This document shows positions 349 to 33,515 of a stretch of DNA of 37,655 nucleotides, one piece after another. How positions within the stretch are numbered: the stretch's first letter is position 1; every line of letters begins with the position of its first letter. The stretch is from an uncultured Methylococcaceae bacterium (GTDB lineage: Bacteria > Pseudomonadota > Gammaproteobacteria > Methylococcales > Methylococcaceae). The stretch spans positions 1 to 37,655 of the forward strand of contig CAIOOA010000307.1 in assembly GCA_903859815.1 (NCBI GenBank), given 5' to 3'. The notes beneath the pieces are model-generated. The model was not told where the DNA came from. It searched no databases and was given only the letters and a program-made list of their open reading frames with translations. The position numbers and the translations under genes were made by a program.

Positions 349-2559
349 CTATAAATCCCTGGCAAGCCGAAAACCTAGGATGTAGTTGGCTACATCGGAC
401 GTGTAGCTGTAACGGATGGCCGAGCGGAGGCTCTGCGGAATGTAGAACCACGAACCGCCGCGAACCACCCGGCGAGAACTGGCACAAGTTGTGCTTAAAA
501 TCCACGCGCTTCCATCCGTTGGCGCACCCAGATACTTGTCGTGATAACAATCCTGAACCCACTCCCAAACATTGCCACTCATATCATATAGACCAAAAGC
601 ATTGGGTTGCTTGCCTCCGACTGGATGGGTTCTGCTGTATGAGTTACTACTAAACCAAGCAACTTTGCCCACATCATCACTACCGCAATACAGCGTATAC
701 TGCCCAGCCCTGCAAGCATATTCCCATTCAGCCTCGTTCGGCAGCCGGTAATGACTACCCGTTATCTCGTTGAGTTTTCGAATAAAGGTTTGCACCTCGT
801 TCCATGACACATTCTCCACTGGACAATTATCCCCGCACTCCTTAAAACGAGACGGGTTGGAACCCATCACCGCTTTCCATTGCCCTTGGATAACCTCATA
901 TTTTCCTAATTTGAAAGCCGCTATATTCACCTCATGCCTAGGCTTTTCATCATCTTCAGCAAAATTATCATTTTCATCCGAACCCATCATGAAACTACCC
1001 GCCGGTATCTCGACCATTTCAGGAAAGATTGCAAAATCCTTTGAACTGACGCCGGGGTTGAGCGGGATTATCGGCTTAGTTTCATCCTTCGAGTTAATCG
1101 TTTGCAAGGCAGCGGGATGACCTTGTTCCGCCGCTTTACGATACCACGCTTGTGCAGCGGCCTTGTCTTGTTTGACACCCGTTCCGGCATCATATAATTT
1201 GCCTAAGGAATACTCGGCTTCGGCATCCCCTAAATTAGCCGCTGTGGTATACCAATTTTTTGCCTTGGTATAATCCTGCATCGTTTCATAATGCTTGCCT
1301 AAGGCTGTGATGACCGTGGGAGAATCAGCAAACACTAACTGTTCAACCGCATTCGGCAGCGTTTTTTCAGCTTCGGCATACGCCAAAACAGCCGCATTGG
1401 TCTGGCCTGTTTTGACAAGGAATTGCCCCGTAACCGCTTGTTTTGCGCCTTCTGCCAAGCTCGGAAATTCTTGATTGATCTTAGTCAAGGCCGATTGATA
1501 AACCTGTTCCTGCGTATTGTATTGCTTGGAAGCTTCGGCAATATTATTCGTTAATTGCTGGTAATAGGCTATTAAATCTTCGTCCACATGGATTCGGATA
1601 TGGATATTGTCATTTTCACGCTCCTCAACACCTATATCAAAGGCATAATCGTTAGTTTTGGGAGCTTTACCCATCCATAGCATAAGGCGTAAATTAATGA
1701 GTTCATCTGGATTGATAGCCCACTTATTGTCATCTAGCAAGTTCGTATAAAAGATCGATTTTGGGAAACCAATCAGCTTAAAATTGACCCGTTCTTTGCT
1801 AATATTCTTAAAATGATACACAGGTGCTTTATTCTGTACGGATACCGATAAGATGTGTGTATTGTTTTCGATTTTATCGGCATCCACCAAACTCAGGGTT
1901 TTTGTATCAGTTGTTTTGGAGGATGTAGTTGAGTTGGGTGTAGAAACACTATCTAACTGTTCGTTAGTCAAATCAAAATCGAGCAAAGATTTCACCATAA
2001 AACCCAAACCCAGCAATATTGCCACTAGGAACGTTATGACCAAGGCAATTAACAAGTTACTCGATTTTTTTTCATCATCGACTGGTTTGGTTAGAATAAG
2101 TGGACTTTCAGGCTTAGGCAATTCATGTGGGGTGATGAAACGTGAAACCAGCTTATGGATGTTGGCCTCAAAATCACTTTGTCTCAGAGTTAAATATTGA
2201 AAATCAAAAAGTCCTTTCATGGATTTTGGGCAGTCTTGTTGAAGCTTGGTTACATCAACCGAATCCTCAAACACCGGCACGATATTTTTGTTCAAGTTTT
2301 TGGCGAACTGAAATTCGCGTCGCAACCAGTCATCTTCTTCGATGCATCGATTCAACGCCCCCGGAGTCACCAGTAACAAAAAATGCTCACGCTTTGGCAC
2401 TTCGCTGAGAATTTGCTTTTCCCAATCCCCTGCACCCATATCATCGACATCAAGGAAAACTTCATAGCCTCGATACGCCAGCGCAAGCTTGACAGATCGG
2501 GCAAAATATTCCCCAATCGCATCGCGCCGATAGCTTATGAAAACGGATTTTTGACTCAT
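349..2559 (-). CDS. TIR - transmembrane - Sel1 repeat - FGE-sulfatase domain protein
   Basis: A 736-residue multidomain protein. Residues 1-140 are a TIR domain (VFISYRR start; FLDVDDMGAGDWE; DWLRREFQFA with E82 at the place of the SARM1 catalytic glutamate; KNIVPV). One membrane helix lies at about 168-190, so TIR is probably cytoplasmic and the rest outside. About 200-420 is unassigned, 422-490 holds Sel1/TPR-like repeats, and 514-736 is a formylglycine-generating-enzyme-type domain (EIPAGSFMMGS, RLPNEAEWEYACRAG, GNVWEWVQD, VVRGGSW, GFRLA). The tail from 704 to 730 resembles a diversity-generating retroelement variable region. A likely role, by inference, is a recognition protein whose FGE domain senses a ligand and whose TIR domain degrades NAD or signals. 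No reverse transcriptase is visible here. Confidence 0.9.
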   Translation of the reverse strand: MSQKSVFISYRRDAIGEYFARSVKLALAYRGYEVFLDVDDMGAGDWEKQILSEVPKREHFLLLVTPGALNRCIEEDDWLRREFQFAKNLNKNIVPVFEDSVDVTKLQQDCPKSMKGLFDFQYLTLRQSDFEANIHKLVSRFITPHELPKPESPLILTKPVDDEKKSSNLLIALVITFLVAILLGLGFMVKSLLDFDLTNEQLDSVSTPNSTTSSKTTDTKTLSLVDADKIENNTHILSVSVQNKAPVYHFKNISKERVNFKLIGFPKSIFYTNLLDDNKWAINPDELINLRLMLWMGKAPKTNDYAFDIGVEERENDNIHIRIHVDEDLIAYYQQLTNNIAEASKQYNTQEQVYQSALTKINQEFPSLAEGAKQAVTGQFLVKTGQTNAAVLAYAEAEKTLPNAVEQLVFADSPTVITALGKHYETMQDYTKAKNWYTTAANLGDAEAEYSLGKLYDAGTGVKQDKAAAQAWYRKAAEQGHPAALQTINSKDETKPIIPLNPGVSSKDFAIFPEMVEIPAGSFMMGSDENDNFAEDDEKPRHEVNIAAFKLGKYEVIQGQWKAVMGSNPSRFKECGDNCPVENVSWNEVQTFIRKLNEITGSHYRLPNEAEWEYACRAGQYTLYCGSDDVGKVAWFSSNSYSRTHPVGGKQPNAFGLYDMSGNVWEWVQDCYHDKYLGAPTDGSAWILSTTCASSRRVVRGGSWFYIPQSLRSAIRYSYTSDVANYILGFRLARDL
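370..450 (-). other. Candidate DGR variable region (VR)
   Basis: This is the last part of the FGE domain. Fixed residues (PQ, LRSA, TSD, GFRLA) alternate with positions that in related proteins are mostly Asn. On the minus strand the variable codons are TTC, TAC, ATT, AGC, ATC, TAC, AGC, TAC, then AAC, TAC, ATC: nearly all NNY, as expected if AAY template codons were mutated at their adenines. GTA, GCC and CTA are exceptions. The template repeat and reverse transcriptase would have to lie outside the window. Confidence 0.5.
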
Positions 2560-8200: not shown

Positions 8201-9064
8201 TTAATGGTTTTCCTCTGCGCTAAATTGTTTCAGGCTATAGGCATAAGCAGATAAGAACAGCAACAGCAAGCCAATCAATACGATGCTGGCGGCTGCACCA
8301 AACGGCCAGTCACGGGCATCTAGGAACTGGTCTTTGAGAAAATTGCCCACCAGCAAATCACGCGAGCCGCCTAATACATCGGCGATGAAGAATAAACCCA
8401 AGGCCGGCATGAACACCAATAAGCACCCCGCGATGATGCCCGGCAAGGTCAATGGCAAAGTCACATGCCAAAACCGCCGCCAACGGCCCGCGCCTAGGTC
8501 GGCGGCGGCTTCGACTAAGCGACGATCCAATTTTTCGATGGCGCTGTACAAGGGCAAAATCATGAACGGCAATAAGATGTAAACCATGCCGATCAGCACA
8601 GCAGAACCGGTGTAAAGCAAACGGATTGGCTCATCAATCAGGCCAAGGGCAATGAGTGTGTTATTCATTAAGCCCTTGGCTGCCAATAACGAACGTATCG
8701 CGTAGGTGCGTATCAGCGAATTGGTCCAAAATGGGACGATAACGAGGGTCAACAACACCGGGCGCAAGCTAGGCCGAAACTGTGCCAAGAAATAGGCGAA
8801 GGGATAGCCCAACCCTAGACAAACCATCGTTGTCAACAAAGCCAGCCCTAATGAATGGGCGAACACCCGCAAATAAATGGGATCAAGCAAACGCAGATAA
8901 TTGTCGAAACTCGGCGCAAACTTGATGAAGCCGCTTTCGTCACGGCCCAAGAAACTGGCGACCAGCACCAGCAGATTGGGAACCAGCACAAAAACCGCCA
9001 ACCAGACCGATAGCAGCAAGATGATGGAGGTTTTAAAAAGGTTAGCGTTTCTCATCTTTACCAT
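8201..9064 (-). CDS. potB: Spermidine/putrescine ABC transporter permease
   Basis: 287 residues, six predicted helices. It carries the EAA loop LVEAAADLGAGRWRRFWHV and the PotB-like central segment VPFWTNSLIRTYAIRSLL. The start at 9064 lies inside the end of the upstream HNH gene (23-bp overlap); a second ATG at 9055 (MRNANLF) is an equally plausible start. Normally potB follows potA directly; here the HNH gene and a hairpin-rich region lie between them. Confidence 0.94.
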   Translation of the reverse strand: MVKMRNANLFKTSIILLLSVWLAVFVLVPNLLVLVASFLGRDESGFIKFAPSFDNYLRLLDPIYLRVFAHSLGLALLTTMVCLGLGYPFAYFLAQFRPSLRPVLLTLVIVPFWTNSLIRTYAIRSLLAAKGLMNNTLIALGLIDEPIRLLYTGSAVLIGMVYILLPFMILPLYSAIEKLDRRLVEAAADLGAGRWRRFWHVTLPLTLPGIIAGCLLVFMPALGLFFIADVLGGSRDLLVGNFLKDQFLDARDWPFGAAASIVLIGLLLLFLSAYAYSLKQFSAEENH

Positions 9065-9404
9065 TTGAATTTATCATTGGTTTAGGCAGCTTTTTTTGTT
9101 TGAGGCGACGCTGCACCCATTCTTTATATTTTTCAGGTTCAGGTGGATTTTTTAACCTATGCCGTAATTGATTACAAAATAAACAAGCCGCAACAATATT
9201 GGATTTAGAGTTTCCTCCACCGTCCTTGCGGGCTTGCAGATGTTCGGCAGTGCATTGGAAAAGCTTGGCTTGCTTTTGTTTTATGCCGTATTTCGAGGAA
9301 ATTTCTTGTGGATTGTTTGTCCACATCGGCATTTTGCAATAGTAGCAAAGGCCAGCTTGGTGGGAATAAGCGGAAGAACGAAGAGTTGTGATTTTGCCAC
9401 TCAT
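9042..9404 (-). CDS. Small HNH endonuclease inserted in pot operon
   Basis: 120 residues from ATG at 9404; a GTG at 9437 would add 11 residues of poorer quality. The zinc-ribbon HNH core is complete: CYYC near the N-terminus, then CTAEHLQARKDGG with the catalytic histidine, then NIVAACLFCNQLRH. It belongs to the small stand-alone HNH proteins common in Proteobacteria. No RuvC or PLMP domain is present, so it is not IscB or a typical IshB. It lies between potA and potB, preceded by a hairpin-dense stretch, and overlaps potB by 23 bp. The cargo or target is unknown. Confidence 0.85.
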   Translation of the reverse strand: MSGKITTLRSSAYSHQAGLCYYCKMPMWTNNPQEISSKYGIKQKQAKLFQCTAEHLQARKDGGGNSKSNIVAACLFCNQLRHRLKNPPEPEKYKEWVQRRLKQKKLPKPMINSNGKDEKR

Positions 9405-9815
9405 AAGAAATACACGAAACAATAGAAAGGAACCCACTCACTACATCAGTAGTTGAGACCGGAACCAGTTGATTTTAAAATCAAACTGGTAATGCAGACT
9501 ACATCAGTATCTGCAAATCCCCTTAAATCCGAATTTATCGGGTATTTAAGGGAAACCGTTCACCACTTAGGTGGTGACGCGGGAACCAGCCGGGCGTTTC
9601 GTGCTGGCTAAACTACCGGCAGACAGTTTTACTGTTCTGTGGCATTCCTTGTTGAGAAGTTTCACATGGCTCTCTAAAAGCTCTAGGGAACAAAATCTAT
9701 GAAACAAGGCTAAGGTCGATTTATATCGGGTCACTTAGCAAAAAGTCATTCAATCATTGAATGCTTGTGGTGAATTTATACACCAGTTAAATCGAAATAT
9801 GCAAGAAAATTTTAC
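9405..9815. ncRNA. Hairpin-dense non-coding region, possible structured RNA
   Basis: About 410 nt with no plausible gene but at least ten stem-loops. The clearest are 9465-9489 (CCAGTT...AACTGG), 9494-9514 (GCAGA/TCTGC), 9520-9552 (CCCTTAAAT/ATTTAAGGG plus inner CCGA/TCGG), 9560-9577 (TCACCAC/GTGGTGA), 9586-9607 (CCAGC/GCTGG), 9620-9639, 9648-9709 (CCTTGTT/AACAAGG closing a larger domain), 9717-9728, 9748-9763 (CATTCA/TGAATG) and 9768-9785. It fills the space from the potA stop to the HNH start. Transcription and strand are unproven; the HNH gene and the operon run on the minus strand. No known RNA family was recognised. Confidence 0.55.
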
Positions 9816-10901
9816 CTAACCATTATTTTTCAACACCCTCTCCCTTCCCCCCACCCAACTCAATCCAACCCGCTGGCCGACTTGGAAATCTAGCGCGTGT
9901 TCCTCTTGGTCGAAAAACTCACTGGCGAACAAGCGCTTGCCACTGTCCAATTCGACGACACAATCCAAGGTCATGCCTTTGTAGATTTGTTCGACGAGTT
10001 GCCCGCGTAGCCTTGCGGACGGGTCGGACGGGTCAACCAAGTGCAAATCTTCGGGGCGTAGCAACACATTGAAACGTTCGCCGACGCGGAATGTATGGGT
10101 TTGGCGTAATACGCAATCCAAGCCTTCCACTTTGGCTGCCAACGAAGTTGCGTCAAGCCGATGAGTGATGACACCTTCCAACAAATTGCTTTCACCGACA
10201 AACTGGGCGACAAACAGGCTGGCGGGTTTCTCGTAGATTTCACGTGGGCCGCCGATTTGCTCGATCCTACCGTCTCGCATGACCACCACCCGGTCGGACA
10301 TGGACAGAGCTTCTTCTTGGTCATGGGTGACAAACACAAACGTAATGCCCACCGAGCGTTGCAAGGTTTTCAAGGTCATTTGCATAGACTTGCGGAGCTT
10401 GGAGTCCAAGGCACTGAGCGGTTCGTCCAATAGCAATACACGAGGCCGGTTGACCAAAGCCCGAGCCAAAGCCACCCGCTGCTGTTGTCCGCCTGACAAT
10501 TGACGTGGCTTGCGAGTCCCAAACTCTGGCAAATCCACCGCAGCCAGCGCTTGTTCCACCCGTTCCCGAAGGTTCATGCTTGGGATTCTTTTCATCCTTA
10601 AACCGAAGGCAACATTGTCGAACACGCTTAAATGAGGGAATAACGCATAACTTTGGAAGACGGTGTTGACGTTGCGCTGGTCGGGCGGCAGAGCATTGAC
10701 TCGTTCCCCGTCTAGCAAGATTTCTCCAGAATCTGGCCGTTCAAAGCCCGCCAATAGGCGCAGCAAAGTCGTTTTGCCACAGCCGGAAGGGCCGAGCAAG
10801 GTTAAAAATTCACCTTCAGCAATGGTCAAATCCAAATTGCGCAAGACGGTATTCGCGCCGTATGTTTTGGTGATGGCTAGGAATTCTACAACAGGCTTCA
10901 T
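9816..10901 (-). CDS. potA: Spermidine/putrescine ABC transporter ATP-binding protein
   Basis: 361 residues, the usual PotA length. The nucleotide-binding domain has Walker A GPSGCGKT, signature LSGGQQQR, Walker B VLLLDEPLSALD and the switch histidine in FVTHDQEEAL. The C-terminal 110 residues form the TOBE domain (LRPEDLHLV), which regulates transport. First gene of the minus-strand pot operon; it powers import through PotBC. Confidence 0.96.
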   Translation of the reverse strand: MKPVVEFLAITKTYGANTVLRNLDLTIAEGEFLTLLGPSGCGKTTLLRLLAGFERPDSGEILLDGERVNALPPDQRNVNTVFQSYALFPHLSVFDNVAFGLRMKRIPSMNLRERVEQALAAVDLPEFGTRKPRQLSGGQQQRVALARALVNRPRVLLLDEPLSALDSKLRKSMQMTLKTLQRSVGITFVFVTHDQEEALSMSDRVVVMRDGRIEQIGGPREIYEKPASLFVAQFVGESNLLEGVITHRLDATSLAAKVEGLDCVLRQTHTFRVGERFNVLLRPEDLHLVDPSDPSARLRGQLVEQIYKGMTLDCVVELDSGKRLFASEFFDQEEHALDFQVGQRVGLSWVGGRERVLKNNG

Positions 10902-16914: not shown

Positions 16915-18078
16915 TTACAGATTTTTGAAGAAATCTTTATGTTTTCCAGCCATTAATTCAATTTTTTGGATTTCCCTATTAACAACTGCCCCACACTTGT
17001 GCGCCAGAAAATCATGATAATTGAGTAATATACAAAATTTAATTGGTTTGAATAAGATAATTACCTTCCCTTCGCCAATTTTATTCAAATCTTTTTGGGT
17101 AAGATTTTCGCTAGTAGCGATATGAACAGAACAAATTAAATTCATCCCAATGTTTATTACTAATGAAATAAAGTTTTCAATTGGAACAATAATCAAAGTT
17201 ACAGCATTTTCAAGGCCAGTTGATGATTTGAATTTACTATCATATACATTAGATAAAATAGGCACGCCTCTAATATTAGTTGGTGGATCGTTTTCTTTGA
17301 GCCAAAGTGTTTTATTTAATTCATTTGCATAAAGCGTTTCAAGAGATTTAAGTCCAAATAAAGCGTATGCAATTCCAATACTTATCTTTGCCAAAAAACG
17401 AAAATCAAATTTTGTGTAGACATTTAGCTGATGATGTCGATCATTGATTCCTGAGCAAACATCGTTAAAAAAATCGATACGCTTTTGGTCAGTTATATCC
17501 GGTTTAGAAAAACCAATATCGCTTGGGTTTGCACCACTAACGTATGTGCACATTATTTTTTTAACTTTTCTACGATCTTTGAATGCATCAGAAAACGTTA
17601 GCCAAGATAACTGTGGGAATTTCTGGGAACGTTCAGAGAATAGAAAATACGCACGGGTTTCGATTGTTTTCGCAGTTCTTGGGTTTCCACCCATATACCA
17701 GTAAAGACGATTATCATTTGGTCGTAACCAATAAATTTGTTCGCCCAATGAACCTAGCCAAGCTTCGCAGATTTCTGACTCCTCTTTCATATCTGGTGGT
17801 TTCAAATCAGATGGCCCCATACACAACAAAGGTAGGCCAATTGGATTATTAGTGTCAAAAAATGCAAAAAACATTTCTGTCAAGGCACTATACACTGCAA
17901 AGTTTTTTTTAAATCCAGCATCAACAAAAAGACCAAGGTTACTGTTGCATTTATCGCATACCGCTTTAATTTTATATAAATCAGGTGCATAAGCACCACC
18001 TAAGAATTTTGGAATTACATGTTCAAGAGTAAAATCATCATCACGCTTGATTTCTCTACAATATATACATGTTTTCAT
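16915..18078 (-). CDS. HNH endonuclease-like protein with unknown C-terminal region
   Basis: 387 residues. The first 50 are a zinc-ribbon HNH module: C4 and C7 in CIYC, EHVIPKFLGG with H20, and C41 and C44 in CDKC. About 340 residues follow with no motif I recognise; they contain hydrophobic beta-rich stretches. The gene is clearly AT-rich against its neighbours, a sign of horizontal transfer. Such large HNH proteins often sit in restriction or defence regions, but no partner gene is adjacent, only a 515-bp gap upstream. Function unassigned. Confidence 0.75.
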   Translation of the reverse strand: MKTCIYCREIKRDDDFTLEHVIPKFLGGAYAPDLYKIKAVCDKCNSNLGLFVDAGFKKNFAVYSALTEMFFAFFDTNNPIGLPLLCMGPSDLKPPDMKEESEICEAWLGSLGEQIYWLRPNDNRLYWYMGGNPRTAKTIETRAYFLFSERSQKFPQLSWLTFSDAFKDRRKVKKIMCTYVSGANPSDIGFSKPDITDQKRIDFFNDVCSGINDRHHQLNVYTKFDFRFLAKISIGIAYALFGLKSLETLYANELNKTLWLKENDPPTNIRGVPILSNVYDSKFKSSTGLENAVTLIIVPIENFISLVINIGMNLICSVHIATSENLTQKDLNKIGEGKVIILFKPIKFCILLNYHDFLAHKCGAVVNREIQKIELMAGKHKDFFKNL

Positions 18079-25991: not shown

Positions 25992-26000
25992 AAAAAAAAG
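25992..26000 (-). terminator. T-run ending the RNase P RNA
   Basis: Reading minus, the 3' end of rnpB (ACTCCACC) runs directly into eight consecutive T. It is probably the termination site, using the RNA's 3' structure as the stem. Confidence 0.5.
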
Positions 26001-26368
26001 GTGGAGTCGGTCTATAAGCCGGGTTCTGTCTAGGACAGTCATTCATCTGGGCCACTTGTCACCAAGCGCCTCAAGCAACCTACCCGGGGACCGTGCGGGC
26101 CACACATTCGGGACGAACCCGTTGCCCCCCTATTTGGTCTTGCTCCGGGTGGGGTTTGCCCTGCCACTCTCGTTGCCGATAGCGCGGTGCGCTCTTACCG
26201 CACCATTTCACCCTTACCTTTTATTCCCAATGGAAAATAGGCGGTATATTTTCTGTGGCACTTTCCGTAGGCTCGCGCCTCCCAGGCATTACCTGGCACC
26301 CTGCCCAATGGAGCCCGGACTTTCCTCCCTCCGCGCAAGCGCGGACAGCGACTGTCCAACCAACTCCA
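26001..26368 (-). ncRNA. rnpB: RNase P RNA, type A
   Basis: The catalytic RNA of ribonuclease P, which cuts 5' leaders from tRNA precursors. On the minus strand the 5' half carries GGAGGAAAGTCCGGGCTCC, the middle has GCCACAGAAAAT (conserved ACAGAA) and the 3' end reads AGACAGAACCCGGCTTATAG, all universal in bacterial RNase P RNA. The 5' end is near 26368 and the 3' end near 26001, followed by a run of eight T. Length about 368 nt, normal for the A type. Confidence 0.96.
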
Positions 26369-31361: not shown

Positions 31362-32756
31362 ATGATCCTTGGAGTCGATTTCCTTGCCCAGCTAAGGAAA
31401 ATCTTGCCAACGGGTTCCATCCATACTGACCCCGCCGATTGCTGGGCTTACGGCTACGACAATTCCAAAAAACATGCATTGCCTGACGTGGTTGTTTTCC
31501 CCACCCGCCATCATGATGTCGTGGCACTGGTTCGCTTATGCAATGAATTTCGAATCCCACTGACTCCGCGTGGACGCGGAACGGGCACTACGGGCGCTGT
31601 CGTGCCATTGGAGGGCGGCTTGACGATGTCGCTGGAACGCATGAACCGCATCGTCGAATTGGCCCCAGACAACCGCTTTGCCGTGGTGGAACCGGGGTTG
31701 ACCAACCAAGCCTTGCAAGATGCGCTAAAACCCTTGGGCTTTTTCTGGCCCCCCGACCCGACCAGTGCGGCTTATTGCAGCATAGGCGGCAATCTTGCCT
31801 ACAACTCCGCCGGCCCACGTGCCGTGAAATATGGCACGCCTCGCGATAATATTTTCGGACTTCGCGCCGTGACCGGCGATGGGCGCGAACTTAGCACGGG
31901 CGTTTTCACCAGCAAAGGTGTGGTCGGTTTGGATTTGACCCGGCTCATCGTCGGCAGCGAGGGCACTTTGGCCATCATCACCGAAGCCACACTCAAATTG
32001 ACCCCATTGCCAGAATCCATCCGCACGATGCGGGCAGTCTATGCCAATGTCGATGCCGCCACCCGAGCAATCGCCCGCATCATGGCCCAACCGATGAACC
32101 CCTGCGCCTTGGAGTTCATGGATGCCAATGCGATTGACATGATCCGCCAATATTCCAACGTGGAATTGCCAACCGGGGCAGGGGCCTTATTGATGATCGA
32201 AGTGGATGGGCCATTATCCGGTTTGGATGCGGCAGCGGAGTGCATCGCCCAAGCCGCCCAGGTTGAAGGGCTTTTGGATTTCAGCATTGCCCGTGACGCA
32301 AAGGAAGTGGAGGCGCTTTGGCGCACCCGCAAGGCACTTTCCCCGGCCTTACGCAAAGTCGCCCCCGGCAAAATCAACGAAGATGTGGTCGTGCCTGTCA
32401 CCGAACTACCCGCCCTGATTAATGGGTTAAACCGCTTATCCAAACAGCACGGCATCCCCATTGTCAATTTCGGCCATGCTGGCAATGGCAACATCCATGT
32501 CAACCTATTACTCGACCCAAACCAACCAGGCCAACAAGAAAAAGCCGAGGAAGCCTTAAGTGAGGTATTTGATTTGGTTTTAGGTCTGCGCGGAACCTTG
32601 TCCGGCGAACATGGCATAGGCTTGGTCAAGCGGGATTATGTAGACAGGGAATTGGATGCTGTTTCCATGGATTTGATGCGCTCCATCCAGCGCCAGTTTG
32701 ATCCGAATGGGATTTTAAACAAGGGCAAGATGTTGCCGAATTTGGAGCCATTGTGA
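31362..32756 (+). CDS. FAD-linked oxidase, GlcD/D-lactate dehydrogenase-like
   Basis: 464 residues. A VAO-type flavoprotein: the FAD-binding part has PRGRGTGTTGAVVPLEGG, VVEPGLTNQAL and CSIGGNLAYNSAGPRAVKYG; the C-terminal part has NFGHAGNGNIHVNL and SGEHGIGLVKRDYV. The last two are usual in glycolate oxidase GlcD and D-lactate dehydrogenases and hold the substrate-binding histidines. The substrate, glycolate, D-lactate or D-2-hydroxyglutarate, cannot be fixed. It follows diaA by 3 bp and overlaps the next gene by 4 bp (GTGA). Confidence 0.88.
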   Translation: MILGVDFLAQLRKILPTGSIHTDPADCWAYGYDNSKKHALPDVVVFPTRHHDVVALVRLCNEFRIPLTPRGRGTGTTGAVVPLEGGLTMSLERMNRIVELAPDNRFAVVEPGLTNQALQDALKPLGFFWPPDPTSAAYCSIGGNLAYNSAGPRAVKYGTPRDNIFGLRAVTGDGRELSTGVFTSKGVVGLDLTRLIVGSEGTLAIITEATLKLTPLPESIRTMRAVYANVDAATRAIARIMAQPMNPCALEFMDANAIDMIRQYSNVELPTGAGALLMIEVDGPLSGLDAAAECIAQAAQVEGLLDFSIARDAKEVEALWRTRKALSPALRKVAPGKINEDVVVPVTELPALINGLNRLSKQHGIPIVNFGHAGNGNIHVNLLLDPNQPGQQEKAEEALSEVFDLVLGLRGTLSGEHGIGLVKRDYVDRELDAVSMDLMRSIQRQFDPNGILNKGKMLPNLEPL

Positions 32757-33196
32757 CGTTAGAACAACCCGCCTTATTAGATTTAAGCGCCCTACAGGAT
32801 GCAATATCCTCTTTGCGAGATGGCTTGGGTGTGGTCAGTAATCCGACGTGGTTCAATCAGCAGTCCAGCCCAGTTCAGAACACCCTTATTGCAGGTGTTA
32901 TTAAAAACTTTGAATTCGTTTATGAAATTAGTATTAAGATGATTCGGCGGCGACTTGAGATTGGGTCGGATAGCCCTGCTGATGTAGATCAAATGGAGTT
33001 TCGGAATCTGTTGCGGTCAGCGGCAGAGAGAGGATTGATTGCCGATGTGGAGGCATGGTTTAAATACCGCAAGATGCGAAATATCACCTCCCAACCTTAC
33101 GATCATGAAAAAGCACGTCAGGTTTATCAGGAAACCTTAGTGTTCATCAAAGATGCTGGTTTACTATTAGAAAAATTGGAAGCGATGAATGCTTGA
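32753..33196 (+). CDS. HepT/HI0074-like HEPN protein with altered active site
   Basis: 147 residues, GTG start inside the upstream stop (GTGA). It matches the HI0074-type nucleotidyltransferase partner of the HEPN superfamily: LQDAISSLRDGL, VIKNFEFVYEISIKMIRRRL and FRNLLRSAAERGLI. HepT toxins carry the motif RX4HXY; here it reads R109-N-I-T-S-Q114-P-Y116, so the histidine needed for RNA cutting is a glutamine while the tyrosine modified by the partner stays. It overlaps the MNT gene by 8 bp. It is probably not an active RNase. Confidence 0.82.
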   Translation: MTLEQPALLDLSALQDAISSLRDGLGVVSNPTWFNQQSSPVQNTLIAGVIKNFEFVYEISIKMIRRRLEIGSDSPADVDQMEFRNLLRSAAERGLIADVEAWFKYRKMRNITSQPYDHEKARQVYQETLVFIKDAGLLLEKLEAMNA

Positions 33197-33515
33197 ACCA
33201 CCCGTCAACCTATCCATCAAGCATTGGAATATAGTCCGCAATATCTTACAAAAGCATGTGCCTGAATATGAAATATGGGCATTTGGTTCCCGCGCCAAAG
33301 GGACAGCAAAACTTTATTCCGATTTGGATTTGGCTATAATTTCCAACCAAGCACTAAACCTCGCAGTCAGTGCCGCACTGGAAAATGATTTCACTGAATC
33401 TGACTTGCCGTGGAAGGTAGATGTGGTGGATTGGGCGACAACAAGCGAAACGTTTAGAAAAATTATAGAGCGAGAAAAGGTTGTGATTCAACTACCGACA
33501 AAGCGTATAGTTTGA
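33189..33515 (+). CDS. Minimal nucleotidyltransferase (MntA/HI0073-like)
   Basis: 108 residues. The nucleotidyltransferase signature GSX10DXD is complete: G33-S34, then RAKGTAKLYS, then D45-L-D47. In HepT-MntA systems this protein adds AMP to the tyrosine of its HEPN partner and neutralises it. Starts at ATG 33189 inside the preceding gene, so the two are translated together. Because the partner's catalytic His is lost, the pair may serve another purpose or be a decayed toxin-antitoxin unit. Confidence 0.85.
   Translation: MLEPPVNLSIKHWNIVRNILQKHVPEYEIWAFGSRAKGTAKLYSDLDLAIISNQALNLAVSAALENDFTESDLPWKVDVVDWATTSETFRKIIEREKVVIQLPTKRIV

Follow-up and report, generated by a model that had tools for sequence, protein, structure and literature searches.

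A small HNH nuclease gene and its conserved leader RNA, inserted between potA and potB, as a candidate self-limiting homing cassette

Between the genes potA and potB of an uncultured Methylococcaceae bacterium (assembly GCA_903859815.1, contig CAIOOA010000307.1, positions 1 to 37,655, referred to here as the window) lies, on the minus strand, a small HNH nuclease gene together with about 400 nucleotides (nt) of very stable stem-loops. The minus-strand gene order is potA, potB and potC, each scoring above its NCBIfam cutoff, followed by a PotD-like protein below cutoff. The features of the locus are given below, where R1 denotes a covariance model of the conserved RNA unit, H1 and H2 its paired elements, and E the expectation value of a match.

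8201..9064, minus strand: potB, the downstream neighbour, with its start inside the HNH gene (NCBIfam NF007044, 378.7 bits, cutoff 348)
9042..9404, minus strand: HNH nuclease gene, 120 residues from ATG 9404 (Pfam, homologue alignment, AlphaFold2 model with mean predicted local distance difference test score, pLDDT, of 84.5)
9412..9421, minus strand: partner arm, 8–17 nt before the HNH ATG, forming a predicted duplex with 9595..9604
9422..9497, minus strand: conserved RNA unit, copy 2, in tandem (R1 48.2 bits, E = 4.4e-18; a training row)
9544..9615, minus strand: conserved RNA unit, copy 1, with H1 (CCAG..CTGG), GGTTCC and H2 (R1 49 bits, E = 1.9e-18; a training row)
9595..9604, minus strand: segment within H1 of copy 1 that can pair with the HNH ribosome-binding region (predicted duplex −18.6 kcal/mol)
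9775..9804, minus strand: probable promoter TTGCAT-N18-TATAAA, with TG before the second hexamer (sequence reading and conservation)
9046..9827, minus strand: inserted cassette, absent from the orthologous junction of genome G079 (blastn, window against G079)
9816..10901, minus strand: potA, the upstream neighbour (NCBIfam NF006987, 541.8 bits, cutoff 482)

The HNH open reading frame spans 9042–9437 and opens at GTG 9437, giving 131 residues; because most homologues align from the residue encoded by ATG 9404, the 120-residue gene at 9042–9404 is the likelier one. An HNH gene at this junction had been proposed from the letters alone (the original prediction), and its placement is borne out by a Pfam match above cutoff (PF01844, 26.4 bits, cutoff 21.4) and by neighbours that both receive NCBIfam names. 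The 23-bp overlap between the HNH stop (9042) and the potB ATG (9064) agrees with the coordinates, and the centroid fold of the 415 nt upstream contains eleven hairpins, where at least ten had been claimed.

The HNH gene and the RNA belong together and were inserted together as one mobile cassette, a conclusion supported by comparison with relatives. In G079, a genome of the same genus, potA and potB meet directly, with 9 nt in place of the roughly 780 bp of the window (blastn); the flanks match those of the window at 96.4% over 473 bp on the potA side and at 93.9% over 685 bp on the potB side, and the potB protein is 97% identical. An empty site of the kind that the original prediction suggested looking for is thus present, and the cassette resembles free-standing HNH homing genes in being intergenic and missing from a near-identical allele. 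The cassette itself provides the end of the potA frame (final codons and stop) and the potB start codon. It occupies the same junction in G000, G091, G097 and G033 (in the last, its two ends lie on two contigs and the HNH frame is broken), that is, in four of the five genus genomes having a strong potB match; the comparison covered seven genomes, and in two of these (G081 and G085) potB was not matched at E ≤ 1e-60. The gap that separates potA from the cassette promoter contains other, repeat-like sequence in G097 (locus L056) and G033 (L058), of a GCTCCAGCTT type and a CACGAAA/TTTCGTG type, respectively, which was not seen in the window.

Another genus, g71, has a related cassette with copies at different sites: the G394 element recurs in G714 (690 bp, 90%) and G693 (547 bp, 82%), with flanks that are unmatched within the stretches compared. 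A remnant of the G394-type element is left in G747, and G751 carries an element with the same left flank as G394; altogether, 5 of 61 g71 genomes match the G394 element. The stretch shared by G394, G714 and G693 starts at an identical base, which is the promoter −35. Its right end lies at most about 20 nt from the HNH stop in G693 and G747, and the stretch shared by G394 and G714 runs about 160 nt past that stop. Searches for empty sites in Sinorhizobium, Rhizobium and Marinobacter gave flank pieces and, at the level of the match listings, no clean empty site.

The encoded protein has an intact HNH nuclease core. Residues C20, C23, E54, H55, N69, C74, C77 and H82 are all present in the window protein; in an alignment of 57 of the 78 HNH proteins collected, C20, C23, E54, N69, C77 and H82 never vary, and at least 90% of the sequences retain H55 and C74. 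Rough ratios of nonsynonymous to synonymous substitution rates (about 0.40, 0.23 and 0.14 in three within-genus pairs, with synonymous changes near saturation in two of them and the G097 row running a few codons beyond the stop) point to selection on the protein. Foldseek searches with the AlphaFold2 model returned nothing at E ≤ 0.001, the top matches being the Gme HNH nicking endonuclease (PDB 4h9d) and EcoKMcrA (6ghc) at E of 4e-3 to 1e-2. In structural comparison the highest Z-score was 7.1, and Cas9 and IscB HNH domains appear near the top of the list (Z of 5–7); such matches indicate an HNH fold rather than a function.

Across the order, relatives of the protein occur in 8 of 201 genomes; for the family the count is 5 of 38, and for the phylum 5 of 398. 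Each count includes the window's own genome, and the E limits differ. Relatives occur further in 10 genome_contigs loci, including Marinobacter, Zoogloea and Desulfocapsa, in 92 viral-contig loci (80 kept) and in 12 plasmid records; no relative was found in the phage collection at E ≤ 1e-8. Plasmids of the cultured Methylomonas strains DH-1 and LL1 are among the carriers. In the five annotated plasmid regions viewed among L164–L169, the HNH gene is listed in L167 and L169 and unlisted in L164, L165 and L166; it may be annotated in the original records, because the PLSDB gene table is incomplete. One viral contig (L062:3315-4312) carries two tandem HNH cassettes, each with its own leader RNA match, and their proteins fall on different branches of one clade in a tree of few columns and many weak forks, which we used only for this pair and for placing the window beside G091. 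A second HNH protein is encoded in the window at 16915–18078 (minus strand; 387 residues, N-terminal HNH_5 domain, 56.5 bits), with no NCBIfam match at E ≤ 1e-5.

The stem-loops upstream of the gene are real, as the original prediction had it, and very stable: the 415-nt stretch folds at −130 kcal/mol on the minus strand (z = −6.6) and has z = −6.1 on the plus strand, with none of 100 shuffles as stable in either case. They are not a free-standing stretch, being an expanded version of a leader that recurs before HNH genes. Preceding the HNH start in this leader are H0, a TGTTGTG-like linker, H1 (CCAG..CTGG), GGTTCC or GGTACC, and H2 (CCCG..CGGG), with 20–50 nt between H2 and the start codon; H0 was assessed by folding alone. 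This RNA is found before HNH genes at unrelated places in gamma-, beta- and deltaproteobacterial records. The window leader measures 396 nt from near the −35/−10 region to the ATG, as compared with 239 nt from −10 to ATG in the sister copy of G091 and 122–123 nt in G033 and G097; the hairpins owe part of their density to an expansion confined to the window and G091 copies.

The H1 and H2 stems covary. R1 was trained on 24 rows from 22 sources, picked by regular expressions for the CCAG..CTGG-like motif. Aligned with MAFFT only, these rows contain 46 cells changed on both sides of a pair, against 23.4 ± 4.3 in shuffled alignments (0/500), and give a covariation score of 0.269, against 0.138 in shuffles (0/500) and at most 0.123 for slid versions of the structure. 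A 30-row alignment fitted by covariance model, which favours the structure by construction, has 70 two-sided changes against 31.4 in shuffles. Least well kept are the inner pairs of H2, which are paired in 52–62% of rows.

The RNA keeps company with the gene. R1 recovers six leaders outside its training set at E ≤ 1e-3 (L060, L037, L090, L146, L105 and L095), all directly before an HNH gene. In scans that scored the best 129–150 candidate places per genome, 15 genomes yielded eleven R1 matches at E < 1e-7, at ten loci (the window has two matches), each next to an HNH gene; no strong match came from G079, G081 or G085, which lack the HNH gene. Strong matches in 38 genomes of the family likewise all lie beside an HNH gene, except one of 22.5 bits in G021, which falls inside a methyltransferase-like reading frame, so named from its translation, and is taken as chance; so is a second place in G090 (21.9 bits), inside a gatB-like frame named in the same way. 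An HNH cassette lying beside an unrelated RNA, the other option offered by the original prediction, is disfavoured by this association among the candidate places scored. The observations that it had named as telling against itself, stems without covariation or the region without its gene, did not turn up.

Rfam searches, also proposed there, found no family at gathering or permissive thresholds for the window, 34 other loci and two leaders; the permissive rows (mir-10, UCA1, MIR161 and an S15 leader) are far below gathering and were set aside as chance. A DNA search with the 415-nt leader gave short matches (to E of 1) in 207 of 301 genomes of the order, mostly noise, of which only G091 (E = 1.8e-7) was used besides the window. 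Because several rows are near relatives (L036/L064, L047/L048, L043/L045, L090/L146 and L095/L105), the locus counts given here are not counts of independent events. A branch of viral contigs (L075, L078, L082, L104, L131 and relatives) has a different, GC-rich leader, which in L131 reads CGGGTCTCGCGCGAGC..GCCGGGGAGC..GGAGTACCCG; its CGGGTCTC appears able to pair with GGAGTACCCG, at the ribosome-binding site, and the branch may have a second type of leader within the family. In the open-access literature (preprints and most subscription journals being outside the scope of the search) we found no description of the leader RNA or of the pairing of H1 described below.

From its position relative to predicted promoters, the RNA looks like the 5′ leader of an HNH mRNA with a promoter of its own. 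The TTGCAT/TG/TATAAA arrangement of the window is kept in all four genomes with the potA–potB cassette (with TATATA in G033). A consensus promoter scan of the window stretch gave three plus-strand sites (1.5 expected) and none on the minus strand; because it misses 9775–9804, the promoter call there rests on conservation. Across loci, the best TATAAT-like hexamer lies 33–39 nt before H1 in 13 of 30 (2.25 expected), and when two hexamers are scored, 16 of 30 best promoters end 31–38 nt before H1, with 15 of the 30 scores reached by at most 3 of 60 shuffles. It is this −10 at about 36 nt before H1 in many loci that makes the RNA look like a leader. The 34 nt before H1 are more stable than shuffles in 29 of 30 loci (z of −4.7 to −0.2). 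A transcript from the predicted promoter would start at about H0, and so would have little or no room for a 5′ guide.

H1 is complementary to the ribosome-binding region of its own gene. Against permuted partners, H1 pairs with its own Shine–Dalgarno/start segment at −564 versus −460 ± 16 kcal/mol (0/5000, n = 31) and with its own ribosome-binding region at −538.3 versus −434.0 ± 15.6 kcal/mol (z = −6.7, 0/2000, n = 30, L074 having been dropped because its start is 108 nt away); seven control combinations of segments gave z of −1.9 to +1.3. In both tests the window was represented by copy 2 only. L040 offers one example, CCGACTG with CAGTCGG, and several loci another, UGCCA with a UGGCA that contains the start codon. 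Because the same bases make H1, the local hairpin and the pairing with the ribosome-binding site are mutually exclusive. The window's own duplex, between 9595–9604 in copy 1 and 9412–9421, comprises 10 pairs, two of them G–U, with a perfect 8-nt core; none of 30 H1 segments of other loci pairs as well with the window's ribosome-binding region, and the ribosome-binding regions of 7 of 30 other loci pair at least as well with the copy-1 arm. By prediction, then, the ribosome-binding site is paired within the leader, as in hairpin-regulated homing genes, and in 28 of 30 loci the region is predicted to be more open once the upstream sequence is shuffled (mean accessibility 0.34 natively versus 0.45 for shuffles).

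We consider the most economical account to be a selfish homing-type HNH cassette inserted between genes, with its own promoter, a structured 5′ leader that limits translation and a 120-residue endonuclease, and we give it a probability of about 0.6. The leader would have two folds, the local H1 hairpin and one in which H1 is opened onto the Shine–Dalgarno/start region; in some loci a short local hairpin after H2 may close the ribosome-binding region instead. Such alternative folding would keep HNH translation low. The amount of HNH protein may be set by a signal, for which autogenous binding of the leader by the HNH protein is the likeliest candidate and folding kinetics the alternative. The nuclease would cut alleles free of the cassette, and repair would copy the cassette in. 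That the locus fits nothing known, as the original prediction held, is too strong a statement, for free-standing HNH homing genes with hairpin-sequestered ribosome-binding sites exist (mobE, and likewise I-TevI; PMC2988022). Its proposal of a new HNH–RNA element holds in so far as gene and RNA are paired and co-inserted; a leader RNA is a simpler reading than a new HNH–RNA effector.

Several observations weigh against a homing cassette with a regulatory leader. Some concern the window copy itself: only copy 1, and not copy 2, pairs with the ribosome-binding region, there is no recognisable Shine–Dalgarno sequence, and the near-invariant Trp at position 106 is replaced by Leu; because of the last two, the window copy may be decaying. 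Others concern the pairing. Two of the control combinations show a slight signal (H2 paired with the ribosome-binding region, 51/2000; H1 with early coding sequence, 78/2000), and in 9 of 31 rows the pairing with the row's own region is weaker than the mean for foreign ones (L041, L047, L048, L071, L097, L142, L095, L105 and, represented by copy 2, the window); in the predicted folds of the first six of these, local hairpins after H1/H2 take in the Shine–Dalgarno sequence. Grouping 74 leaders by shared 8-mers gave 42 representatives, and the 17 of these that R1 does not reach show a fainter pairing signal (16/3000). As to the structure, the 17 pairs of H1/H2 were drawn by eye from the same training rows, the number of pairs with two-sided changes exceeds that of shuffles only weakly (10 versus 8.2, 37/500), and the outer H1 pairs hardly vary, in part because the rows were chosen by that motif. 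R1 reaches 28 of 78 HNH-bearing sources at E ≤ 1e-3, of which 22 are training sources, the missed leaders being too divergent or, in a few loci, hardly inside the fetched stretch; G394 and G693 have HNH genes but no strong R1 match. No homing site was identified. The sequences carry the insertion with its empty site, the copies elsewhere, the covarying RNA, the −10 at a set distance, the H1 complementarity and the signs of selection on the protein; transcription, repression, switching, cutting and homing are what we infer from them.

The strongest competitor, which we regard as unlikely, takes the leader for a stable partner like the omega RNA, making the HNH protein an RNA-dependent or RNA-guided nickase analogous to IscB/IsrB without RuvC. 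The anatomy is the same, with a structured RNA in the 5′ untranslated region and a Shine–Dalgarno sequence inside a terminal hairpin (PMC9581776, PMC9755519); HEARO RNAs are 5′ untranslated regions (PMC9755519), and the terminal hairpin of the IsrB omega RNA, which holds the Shine–Dalgarno sequence of the nuclease gene, could contribute to regulation (PMC9581776). The protein itself is IscB-like in its HNH region, which reaches 26–30 bits with the IscB model NF040563 in three of four proteins and 19 in the fourth (cutoff 175), and the predicted structure resembles the Cas9 and IscB HNH domains noted above. Pfam scans showed no further DNA-recognition domain in the 120 residues. Moreover, in the four potA–potB cassettes a 10–11-nt stretch of the RNA, CTGGTTCCC, equals a stretch of potB, a match reached in 5, 1, 3 and 1 of 60 shuffles, respectively; we rejected it as evidence of a guide, since the four share one site and are not independent cases, and the motif is kept in cassettes elsewhere.

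Against an RNA-guided enzyme stand the predicted promoters, which in many loci leave only H0 before H1 and hence probably no 5′ guide (the window leader being longer), and the g71 cassettes, which at different sites carry the same RNA with no variable segment visible. In a test on 27 loci, blind to a motif common to all, flanks of the same locus matched the RNA core no better than those of other loci (212 versus 207.5 ± 5.0, 1057/5000). RF02033 is unmatched in the window stretch searched to E ≤ 10, in 34 loci searched at the gathering threshold and in two leaders searched to E ≤ 1. RuvC is absent, as originally predicted: Pfam finds only HNH families in a frame of at most 131 residues, too short for it, and the window protein scores 26.3 bits with the IscB model, over the HNH segment only. 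Truncation of PLMP abolished nicking by IsrB (PMC9581776). The Pfam and NCBIfam scans of the HNH protein matched no PLMP-like model, with no dedicated PLMP model among those searched. An HNH-only relative of IscB, IshB, has a PLMP domain next to its HNH domain. The cassette thus fails as a member of the IscB family, which lowers the claim of identity and leaves untouched the chance that the RNA also serves the protein. A leader used both for translation control and as an RNA partner, making the cassette a minimal RuvC-less HNH ribonucleoprotein, is a speculative combination that we rate somewhat below the partner reading.

It is improbable that the hairpins act as DNA, either as an operator bound by the HNH protein or as a folded single-stranded end used in mobility. 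In favour are their position close to the cassette's left end, the similar stability of the reverse-strand fold and the example of I-TevI, which binds its operator as tightly as its homing site (PMC2988022); a double-stranded operator, however, has no need of two-sided pair changes without sequence conservation, and H1 is complementary to the ribosome-binding/start region and not to two nearby coding segments. Plain damping, in which the leader merely hides the ribosome-binding site with no second conformation or signal, carries the same low odds. It is known for I-TevI, segB and mobE of the T4-type homing genes, whose ribosome-binding sites are hidden by RNA structure (PMC2988022), and it would suit the reduced predicted accessibility of the region; set against it are the preservation of both local H1 pairs and H1–ribosome-binding-site pairs despite their exclusion of each other, and the recurring unpaired TGTTGTG and GGTTCC, which suggest a binding partner. 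A remnant of a self-splicing intron is the most far-fetched: HNH homing genes are often intron-borne (PMC2988022), but the conserved RNA is short and wholly before the reading frame, the cassette is intergenic, no group I or II intron matched the window at gathering or 9000–9900 at E ≤ 10, and 34 other loci gave a single group II match, at L142. That match (RF00029, 46.1 bits, L142:758-906, minus strand) lies about 490 nt before the L142 leader, on the opposite strand.

Elsewhere in the window are a 736-residue protein combining a TIR_2 domain, Sel1 repeat and FGE-sulfatase domain (349–2559, minus strand), a bacterial RNase P RNA of class A (25999–26367, minus strand, 340 bits), and an HI0074-type/MntA-type pair of nucleotidyltransferase substrate-binding protein and nucleotidyltransferase (32753–33515, plus strand), a look-alike of type VII toxin–antitoxin systems for which the MntA model is below its cutoff.

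These findings add a widespread RNA without an Rfam match, tied to a small HNH nuclease, and a mobile cassette of less than 800 bp with a gene that the tables of several of the plasmid records viewed do not list. If the favoured account is right, the cassette provides a bacterial case of self-limited expression of a selfish nuclease, a question known mainly from T4-like phages. As the layout is that of IscB minus RuvC, the way in which HNH enzymes became tied to RNA could be tested in a very small system; were the leader to have both uses, the cassette would be a present-day model of the tie between HNH and RNA before IscB and Cas9.

Among known systems, the closest in fold are 4h9d and 6ghc, which share the HNH fold as the best Foldseek matches (Z of 6.4 and 7.1); the matches are weak, none reaching E ≤ 0.001 or Z ≥ 8, and the PDB titles name no RNA. 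IscB/IsrB with their omega RNA (HEARO, RF02033) are alike in being mobile and in having a structured 5′-untranslated-region RNA directly before the nuclease gene, HNH-bearing in IscB, and in IsrB the Shine–Dalgarno sequence is in or next to the last hairpin, as in the present leader. They differ in RuvC, PLMP, the 5′ guide and the RF02033 match, none of which was seen here, and in leader length, roughly 300 nt in IsrB and roughly 115–120 nt in the present cassette. Nearest in organization are the phage HNH genes of the mobE type, each likewise a small gene between conserved genes, present or absent in relatives, with a hidden ribosome-binding site (PMC2988022). Cutting and homing are, for the present cassette, a reading from sequence; it resides in bacterial genomes, plasmids and viral contigs, and in contrast to mobE, I-TevI and segB its leader is a multi-hairpin RNA conserved across bacterial classes, with a −10-like hexamer at a set distance in many loci.

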